Shown in pieces: positions 9,054-10,320 of a DNA stretch of 33,926 bases. The stretch is from NCBI RefSeq assembly GCF_020515525.1, contig NZ_JAIYEP010000050.1, positions 1 through 33,926 on the forward strand, read 5' to 3'. Every line of letters begins with the position of its first letter. Position 1 is the first letter of the stretch. A program made the translations under genes and the position numbers. The stretch is from Rhodococcus yananensis. Lineage in GTDB: Bacteria > Actinomycetota > Actinomycetes > Mycobacteriales > Mycobacteriaceae. The notes beneath the pieces are model-generated. The model saw only the letters and a list, made by a program, of their open reading frames with translations. It had not been told where the DNA came from and made no database searches.

Positions 9054-9132
9054 GGTTCACAACACCTGTGCAAGGCTCACAGCGCGAGTGGTTGCTGCCG
9101 GTGCTGTGAGCCTCGTACCGGGTCTGTGAGCT
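9054..9132. promoter_or_regulatory. Four-site palindromic array, left copy
   Basis: GGTTCACA (9054), GGCTCACA (9074), TGTGAGCC (9105) and TGTGAGCT (9125) form two sites in one orientation followed by two in the other, at offsets 0, +20, +51 and +71. The same four offsets recur at 10180-10258. The inner pair extends to an 11-bp perfect inverted repeat, AGGCTCACAGC/GCTGTGAGCCT (9073-9083 and 9103-9113). The array covers the stop codon and last codons of the DUF559 gene. Confidence 0.75.
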
Positions 9133-10102
9133 TCCCCGTGGTGAAACGTCCGACGGGGCCGGGGCCCCGGGCGGCGAGCTCGAATCCGCCCCGGAGACGC
9201 GCCGCCAGCACGCCCGGCGTGGACAGATCCGACCACGTCCAGCGCACGACGACCCAGCCCGCGTGGCGCAGACCGTCTTCACGCAGCTTCTCCCTGTAGA
9301 CGACGTTCTCGGCGTCGTCGGTGGCGACGCCGTCCCGTCGGTACTTGATCCGCCCGTCGAACTCCCCGACCACACCGTGTTCGGGGAACAGGAAATCGAC
9401 GCGCGCGAGCCACCGACCCTCCTCGTCGAACACGTCGACCTGGGTCAACGGCACGGGGAGTTGCTCGCCGACCATCCGTGCGCGGCTCAGGGACTCACCG
9501 ACGCTGTCGCTGCGCTCGCACATGAAGCGCACGGCGCGGGCCGCGCGTGCACGTCCCGGATGCGACCCCATGTCGTCGACGGCACGCCGCACTTCGTCGA
9601 GGTCGACGAGTCCGTTCCGCAACGCCTGGTCGCCGACGACGACGGCCCTGTCGAACGGGACCGTCGCGGCGAGATCGGTGACGGTCTTCGCGGGTGACAA
9701 CACTCGGGTGCCGCCGACATCGGCGACATCCACCTCGCGGAAACTGGCGGAATGGAGGACGCGTCCGTCGCGGCGCCGACCGCCGGTGGGGCGGTTGCGC
9801 GCGATGTGCACGTCGTCGAGCGGGATGTTCCACGGTCGCAGACCGTGCAGCACCGCCGCCGAGACGTGACTGAGAACCGCGTCCGGAGAGGCGGTCGCGA
9901 GCACCGCGCGGGCACGCAGTTCGTGCCGTCGGTACTCGTCGGCGGCGTCGTACGCCTCGCAGGGCACGTACACCCCGGACGCCAGGCGGATCCATCGCCG
10001 GGTGGCGACCAGTCGTCGGATCTCGGCGTCGGTCACGCCGCGCTCGTGTGCGTCGCGTCGGTGGATCAATGCGTCGGCCCCCATGACTACAGCGTCGGTC
10101 AT
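9077..10102 (-). CDS. AbiEi-like/DUF559 endonuclease-fold protein
   Basis: The 341-residue protein matches a common actinobacterial architecture. It has an N-terminal winged-helix of the AbiEi type (about 1-60; RRDAHERGVTDAEIRRLVATRRW, IRLASGVYVPC), a middle domain with SHVSAAVLHGLRPW and VTDLAATVPFDRAVVVGDQAL, and a C-terminal Vsr/DUF559 nuclease-like fold (about 245-325). The putative catalytic acids are in RVDFLFPE and GEFDGRIKY. AbiEi proteins are antitoxins in type IV toxin-antitoxin systems, but no AbiEii-like toxin gene is adjacent. The ATG at 10100-10102 lacks a good ribosome site, and a second ATG six codons later is possible. The gene is bracketed by matching four-site arrays, one in its promoter region and one over its 3' end. 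It could be a regulator, a nuclease or a selfish element. Confidence 0.75.
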   Translation of the reverse strand: MTDAVVMGADALIHRRDAHERGVTDAEIRRLVATRRWIRLASGVYVPCEAYDAADEYRRHELRARAVLATASPDAVLSHVSAAVLHGLRPWNIPLDDVHIARNRPTGGRRRDGRVLHSASFREVDVADVGGTRVLSPAKTVTDLAATVPFDRAVVVGDQALRNGLVDLDEVRRAVDDMGSHPGRARAARAVRFMCERSDSVGESLSRARMVGEQLPVPLTQVDVFDEEGRWLARVDFLFPEHGVVGEFDGRIKYRRDGVATDDAENVVYREKLREDGLRHAGWVVVRWTWSDLSTPGVLAARLRGGFELAARGPGPVGRFTTGKLTDPVRGSQHRQQPLAL

Positions 10103-10146
10103 CGATGGCGACGTACCACCGCCGGCGGGGCCGGTCGGCTGCTGCC

Positions 10147-10174
10147 TGTGGATGAACACGGGGGTTGTGGACAA
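10147..10174. promoter_or_regulatory. Two DnaA-box-like 9-mers
   Basis: TGTGGACAA at 10166-10174 is the complement of TTGTCCACA, the actinobacterial DnaA box, and TGTGGATGA at 10147-10155 is a near match 19 bp away. They lie in the leader of the DUF559 gene, next to the right array. The locus does not look like an origin (no dnaA, dnaN or gyrB nearby). These could be DnaA-titrating or regulatory sites, or chance. Confidence 0.3.
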
Positions 10175-10179
10175 CTTGG

Positions 10180-10258
10180 GGTTCACACCCCTGCTGCGAG
10201 GTTCACAACTCCACCAGCAGCAGTACGACCTGTGAGCCTCGCATCCGTGCTGTGAGCC
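10180..10258. promoter_or_regulatory. Four-site palindromic array, right copy
   Basis: GGTTCACA (10180), GGTTCACA (10200), TGTGAGCC (10231) and TGTGAGCC (10251) have exactly the spacing of the left array (0, +20, +51, +71). The 20-bp phase puts paired sites on nearly the same DNA face. It lies 78 bp upstream of the DUF559 start codon, so it may contain or control that promoter. Confidence 0.75.
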
Positions 10259-10270
10259 CGGTGAGACCCC

Positions 10271-10300
10271 GCAGGGCCGGTGAATGATCACCGGCCCTGC
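10271..10300 (-). terminator. Strong hairpin terminator of the Fe-S reductase gene
   Basis: GCAGGGCCGGTGA and TCACCGGCCCTGC form a perfect 13-bp stem with a 4-base loop, 20 bases after the Fe-S reductase stop codon. There is no U-tract. Confidence 0.75.
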
Positions 10301-10320
10301 GAGATGATTGCCCTGCTTGC

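Follow-up and report, generated by a model that had tools for sequence, protein, structure and literature searches.

The REP repeats of REPtrons often run to hundreds of copies. They lie near the 3' ends of genes and in the gaps between convergent ones, and REPs may also flank a RAYT gene on both sides, according to the excerpted text of one account (PMC3733652). AbiEi and Rv2827c are described, in excerpts of a second report, as repressing their own promoters, where they bind two and four 23-bp inverted repeats (PMC7319586). The homing endonuclease I-Bth0305I acts as a dimer on a target of nearly 60 bp, as stated in the part of the source consulted (PMC3943268).

A single gene between two four-word arrays

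The window, a stretch of 33,926 nucleotides from Rhodococcus yananensis, contains a gene that stands between two arrays of short words. The features of the locus are as follows:

9054..9132, no strand: array A, words GGTTCACA, GGCTCACA, TGTGAGCC and TGTGAGCT at 9054, 9074, 9105 and 9125, with the stop codon of the gene inside (reading and pattern search)
9077..10102, minus strand: AbiEi-like/Vsr-like (DUF559-type) gene, 341 aa, start taken from alignment; structure model with mean pLDDT 89.8
9167..9511, minus strand: C-terminal nuclease-like part, residues 198-312
9518..10102, minus strand: N-terminal AbiEi-antitoxin-like part, residues 1-195, a putative DNA reader
10147..10171, minus strand: two TCCACA boxes (TTGTCCACA, TCATCCACA), 19 bp apart, before the gene (reading)
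10180..10258, no strand: array B, words GGTTCACA, GGTTCACA, TGTGAGCC and TGTGAGCC at 10180, 10200, 10231 and 10251, upstream of the gene (reading and pattern search)
10270..10301, no strand: hairpin behind the Fe-S gene, perfect-looking by eye and apart from array B

An earlier note on this DNA had described four sites with one geometry in both flanks, and both direct reading and pattern search place the words at offsets 0, +20, +51 and +71 on each side. A three-site pattern gave three matches in the window (array B counted on both strands) and none in 100 dinucleotide-preserving shuffles. The two arrays agree at 30/32 word bases and at 22/47 spacer bases. Their placement is also as that note had it, with array A covering the stop codon and array B on the promoter side. 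Array B lies between the hairpin behind the upstream Fe-S gene and the pair of TCCACA boxes before the start codon. The hairpin is likely an ordinary terminator, separate from array B.

The exact three-site pattern had no match in genome_contigs, a collection among whose records the genome of origin is possibly missing; with up to one mismatch it was found in 2 of the 18 genomes of the genus, that of R. yananensis included. The words are specific to R. yananensis and the geometry is wider than the species.

The mechanical open reading frame starts at 10291 and spans 404 aa; the start at 10102 was picked by alignment. The protein is predicted with high confidence to join an AbiEi-antitoxin-like half to a half resembling Vsr and the homing endonuclease I-Bth0305I, in keeping with the DNA-binding and Vsr/DUF559 nuclease-like domains proposed before. 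This fold list is a VIA-align re-ranking of Foldseek's own matches, and folds beyond it are possible. Residues E203, D236, E247 and D249, candidate counterparts of the EDxHD residues, are invariant, and K253 nearly so, across 41 sequences. The C-terminal tail (window positions 9077-9132) is encoded by array A itself and is longer than in aligned relatives.

The predicted composition raises the possibility of a defence or self/non-self system in which the nuclease attacks DNA that carries the arrays, or DNA that does not. A nuclease-like half would suit such a role, and the N-terminal half scores against PADLOC AbiEi models at 4e-19. These models describe the antitoxin half only, however, and we found no partner toxin or AbiEii gene adjoining the gene, whose neighbours are FA_desaturase and CCG/Fer4 proteins; the earlier reader had likewise seen no toxin. 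Nor did the plasmid records searched yield a homolog at 1e-20. We regard a defence function as improbable.

Matched flanks across the gene family

A search for the family returned a match at 1e-40 in 111 of 151 genomes, with at most 14 candidates scored per genome. Homologs occur in Rhodococcus, Prescottella, Nocardia, Antrihabitans, Hoyosella, Pseudonocardia, Geodermatophilus, Blastococcus, Modestobacter and others, and reading of their flanks suggested the same two-sided design with other words. The counts that follow concern homologs from named genomes, the best 80 of at least 557 relatives, of which 79 have long enough flanks; they are nearest relatives and not a random sample.

Among these best 80 of at least 557, a four-word score of at most 5 mismatches was reached by 18/80 5' flanks (one of the 80 being too short for a score) and 24/80 3' flanks, compared with 8/1169 control windows, and a single word set fitted the two flanks, with no more than 12 mismatches in the eight words, in 19/79 genes, compared with 11/1580 cross-pairs and 2/2692 same-locus pairs. 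Word spacings of 18, 19, 20, 21 and 22 were found in 2, 12, 19, 1 and 2 of the 79 genes from the same best 80 of at least 557; allowing 19 or 20 gave 38/79 genes against 9 and 3 of 1346 among the controls. Of the 38 genes with word sets at 19-20 bp, 34 have the same central spacing in the two flanks.

The two flanks were also compared without gaps and without any assumed word. At a score of 20 or more, 50 of the 79 homologs (best 80 of at least 557) are bracketed by a repeat, against 4/632 cross-pairings and 2/1059 same-locus windows, and the other 29 have no bracketing repeat at this threshold. At 25 or more the count is 42/79 in the same set (27 direct and 15 inverted repeats, 38 to 147 bases long and 75 to 97% identical) against 2/632 and 1/1059. 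The few high cross-pair scores (highest 65.6) come at least in part from pairs of related species among the controls. The window locus itself scores 25.8, inverted, over 81 bases. The earlier note had proposed a search with the exact words, which had no match in genome_contigs (the genome of origin possibly missing there); the repeats that bracket these 50 homologs are specific to each gene.

A second genome set gave 23 bracketed loci of 51 (omitting L040, whose score of 288 is an artefact of a short locus) compared with none of 29 loci of two unrelated genes (highest score 19.0); the two homolog sets are not fully independent, because some genomes are in both. Words vary between genes yet agree across one gene, and this holds within a single genome: R. 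yananensis has a second homolog (C19:18878-19750, L065) with its own, different repeats on both sides. That the arrays belong to the gene family and match across the two sides of the gene is well supported.

Homologs of about 40% identity had been taken to be array-free (none of L052-L068 at up to 4 mismatches), a view overturned for many of them, L065 included, once 19-bp spacing was allowed and the flanks were compared plainly. A score based on shared 8-mers was discarded, as it did not separate own pairs from cross pairs. At L238 the repeat in the 3' flank, 147 bases long and 90% identical, takes in the promoter boxes and the region of the start codon and looks like the trace of a second copy; tblastn found no second gene in that flank.

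Within Rhodococcus, orthologs at 54 to 65% identity are present in 12 of 17 other genomes. A word-blind scan of these 12 found, at the threshold used, one 3'-side array in 10, both arrays in G007 and none in G003; 11 of the 12 are without a matched array pair. Orthologs lacking both arrays, an outcome the earlier note had allowed for, are represented by G003 alone. The array words of the orthologs include GGTACGCA/GGCTCGCA, AGCTAGCA/AGCAAGCA, AGCTCGCA and GCTTACAC, and the orthologs retain the geometry and swap the word. Paired changes on sixteen arrays exceed those of all 500 shuffles, which fits a hairpin and palindromic duplex sites equally well.

The gene has opposite orientations in R. 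yananensis and in G007, with arrays on both sides in each, and in other Rhodococcus it is reversed between the same neighbours relative to the window. Flanks in g10 and in part of g22, read by eye, have the order Fe-S gene, array, gene, array, convergent neighbour; in two g22 genomes this neighbour resembles, also by eye, a desaturase-like gene, as in the window. We take g10 to be Prescottella because G104 and G140 share their arrays with the Prescottella defluvii and P. subtropica loci. From these few loci, the gene seems to have been inverted between its arrays, the arrangement in the window being that of other genera.

Arrays away from the gene

The genome of R. yananensis (4.25 Mb in 178 contigs) contains eight whole GGYTCACA arrays, identified with a two-word half pattern at up to 2 mismatches. 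They sit on C1, C19 (two), C43, C50 (the two of the window), C73 and C87, and six of them are away from the window gene. The earlier observation that site positions are more conserved than the rest extends to this set: seven arrays compared in 21 same-orientation pairs (the 80-bp array on C1 being omitted) agree at 29-31 of 32 word bases and at 22-28 of 47 spacer bases.

The arrays on C43 and C73, which lie beside different genes, are identical at 74 of 79 bases. Their likeness starts at the first base of the array and fades about 10 bases past the last, and the two solo arrays are a recent copy of array size. At the C73 place, the gap between the two convergent neighbours does not exceed 7 bases in 9 of the 12 relatives found and is 29 and 149 bases in two others (the partner was not found in one), and the intergenic stretches shown for these relatives contain no array; in R. 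yananensis the neighbours are about 219 bases apart, array included. The extra DNA there is longer than the array, and no target-site duplication was seen by eye. The C43 place holds other sequence in 16 relatives, mostly a plain inverted repeat by eye.

Model R1, whose training set included array A, recovers both window arrays on both strands and matches 16 of the 18 genomes of the genus at E <=0.01. Counting both strands, there are 5 to 27 matches in all 13 genomes with an ortholog, and 0, 0, 2, 2 and 4 in the five without, which possibly form one branch. This correlation is only suggestive, since R1 was trained on genomes that have the gene. Under stricter filters, R1 matched 11 of 151 genomes of the wider family. 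Within the genus, the most R1 matches occur in G006, where the ortholog (L099) is nevertheless shortened by its N-terminal third (the match starts at residue 106 and the ORF has 224 aa).

A second model, R2, was built from 22 bracket arrays of g10 and g22. It matched all 14 genomes of these two groups, with 6 to 32 matches each (both strands counted), and none of the four genomes of g9, g17, g19 and g30. Arrays occurring by chance with no link to DUF559 genes, another outcome named in advance, are not what these scans show: arrays do occur elsewhere, yet linked to the gene family. The clearest result against a strict partnership of gene and array is G063 (g22, L332), which has 24 array matches (both strands counted) and whose best homolog reaches 32% identity; its arrays may be remnants, or used by another protein. 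Arrays are arranged differently again in G115 (g6; L210, L330, L331), where several are strung in tandem over a few hundred bases and have words of the AGCGCACA type, and in G140 (L334), where arrays with two different words, TCACACAC and GTCGCAGG, lie side by side.

We examined the settings of 80 arrays drawn from 12 genomes (79 places after merging of second-strand matches, plus one from L040; matches of G002, G007, G013 and G017 and weaker ones were left out). According to a crude gene finder, 62 of the 80 lie within -60 to +40 bases of the 3' end of a gene and 16 within that distance of a 5' end; 35 are between convergent genes, 35 between tandem genes and 5 between divergent genes, and 5 settings are incomplete. 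Many arrays share their place with close relatives and others are private.

This distribution bears on the proposal that the gene is a two-sided autoregulator, whose AbiEi-like domain binds both arrays and loops or insulates its own gene, the solo arrays being secondary or themselves controlled and the nuclease not needing to cut. One array does lie upstream of the gene, a single protein reading both arrays would account for words that match across the gene, and the nearest solved relatives of the N-terminal half, AbiEi and Rv2827c, repress their own promoters through the two and four 23-bp inverted repeats mentioned above (PMC7319586, excerpted text). The solo arrays, however, are seldom between divergent genes (5 of the 75 complete settings) and mostly at 3' ends, where few promoters are, and direct repeats of 60-90 bases that are nearly identical in the two flanks exceed what an operator needs. 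The conserved boxes near the promoter, moreover, are TCCACA pairs and not arrays. Among the best 80 of at least 557 relatives, a TCCACA box lies within 150 bp upstream in 66/79 homologs compared with 65/2276 control windows, and a pair 17-22 apart (all 18 or 19) in 19/79 compared with 0/2276. These boxes are presumably DnaA-box-like. Autoregulation seems unlikely to account for the system, though it deserves serious consideration.

The 3' location and the strong hairpins of the Rhodococcus arrays could also mean that these are ordinary bidirectional terminators or REP-like hairpins that stand beside the gene by chance, and plain hairpins do occupy one orthologous place. Against this, arrays in g10 and g22 retain their words although much of the remaining sequence is unpaired, a terminator has no need of direct word repeats 19-20 bp apart, and the match between flanks is specific to the AbiEi/Vsr-like gene family when compared with two control genes. 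In the window, array B is distinct from the hairpin behind the Fe-S gene. Chance placement of terminators is very improbable, a shade more so than defence.

Several arrays border larger segments. At L123, L139 and L092 they flank modules that by eye resemble protocatechuate-type genes. The module between two arrays in G011 is missing from G012, where one array is left, and contig C45 of R. yananensis shares arrays with G012. Clusters c27, c63, c81 and c26 (L112, L130, L133, L101) make up a module that two arrays enclose in G003 and G005 and that has arrays nearby in G006 and G009; its neighbours adjoin each other in G014, separated by a single array. Hybrid arrays, seen when G014 is set against G003, G005 and G006, may reflect exchange between arrays.

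A proposed one-gene element and its described counterparts

Any explanation has to cover brackets that match across a gene and are specific to it, their fixed spacing, the solo arrays scattered at the ends of genes, one copy of array size and the predicted fold. We consider the best reading to be a REPtron-like one-gene element with an unrelated enzyme, with a probability of roughly 0.58. Such an element would encode, between two palindromic four-word arrays, an AbiEi-like DNA-binding domain joined to a Vsr/homing-endonuclease-like nuclease, and the arrays would be the recognition sites of the encoded protein. The bound protein would nick or cut at the arrays; an array, or the whole unit of array, gene and array, would then be copied or recombined elsewhere and leave solo arrays at gene ends. 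Joint drift of words and protein would give each lineage its own word.

The steps of this scheme differ in strength. By inference, the protein likely binds the words, and it may also cut the arrays and bring about their copying. Both flanking arrays are whole, and they too should be cut unless something protects them. Dispersal, the C43/C73 copy and the extra DNA at C73 at most suggest that the system moves, and the old position of arrays at the Fe-S/desaturase locus speaks for slow or past movement.

A more specific version of this reading is a mobile element in which an AbiEi-Vsr nuclease copies or homes between its own arrays, which would serve as binding code, boundary and landing site, with a private code for each gene and solo arrays as footprints; we entertain this tentatively, at somewhat below even odds. 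The earlier note had listed a one-gene selfish or homing-type element among its explanations. The brackets around 50 of 79 homologs (best 80 of at least 557), the solo arrays and the homing-endonuclease-like fold favour that idea, and the part that sits poorly with it is that the element's own site is uninterrupted.

Were the one-gene reading true, a large group of solitary AbiEi/DUF559-type genes, which resemble antitoxins without toxins, would acquire a role and be linked to a family of repeats dispersed in actinobacterial genomes. It would further mean that REPtron-like repeats have arisen alongside an enzyme of quite another type. The family, in which every gene is flanked on both sides by its own word, would also offer a long natural series of matched proteins and words that could help to decipher the DNA-reading code of a compact nuclease.

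The matching brackets suggest a small kind of self-marking genetic element that is apparently undescribed. A partial survey of the literature, mostly titles and the openings of abstracts, contained nothing that connects bracketing repeats with DUF559-type or AbiEi-nuclease genes, a weak indication of novelty. Two matches to an Rfam family (E 0.12 and 0.98) fell far under the gathering scores and were set aside.

In comparison with known systems, the locus shares with AbiE and Rv2827c the N-terminal fold and, as far as the excerpted account goes, the feature of several inverted repeats bound near the own gene (PMC7319586). It differs in having no adjacent toxin, a nuclease half in addition, arrays that flank the gene and also lie elsewhere, and words 19-20 bp apart; without a toxin, it is not an AbiE system. 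With the EDxHD homing endonuclease I-Bth0305I and with Vsr it shares the predicted fold of the catalytic domain, whereas the DNA-reading half is AbiEi-like and no intron or phage setting was seen at this locus. Unlike a homing endonuclease gene, it stands between two whole arrays with its own target site uninterrupted, and for this reason it is not a classical homing gene.

The likeness to REPtrons lies in a lone gene of nuclease type with palindromic repeats on either side, repeats that are also dispersed at 3' ends and between convergent genes, as excerpts of the REPtron account have it (PMC3733652). The enzyme sets the two apart, for REPtrons use a Y1 HUH tyrosine transposase and the protein described here has an AbiEi plus Vsr-like predicted fold; it is on this ground not a REPtron. 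The repeats differ as well, being about 60-90 bp long, composed of four words, with an own word for each gene, and present in tens of copies per genome at most (0-27 matches with R1 and 6-32 with R2, both strands counted) and not in hundreds. Among known systems, it is nevertheless the REPtron that this element would appear to resemble most in its working.
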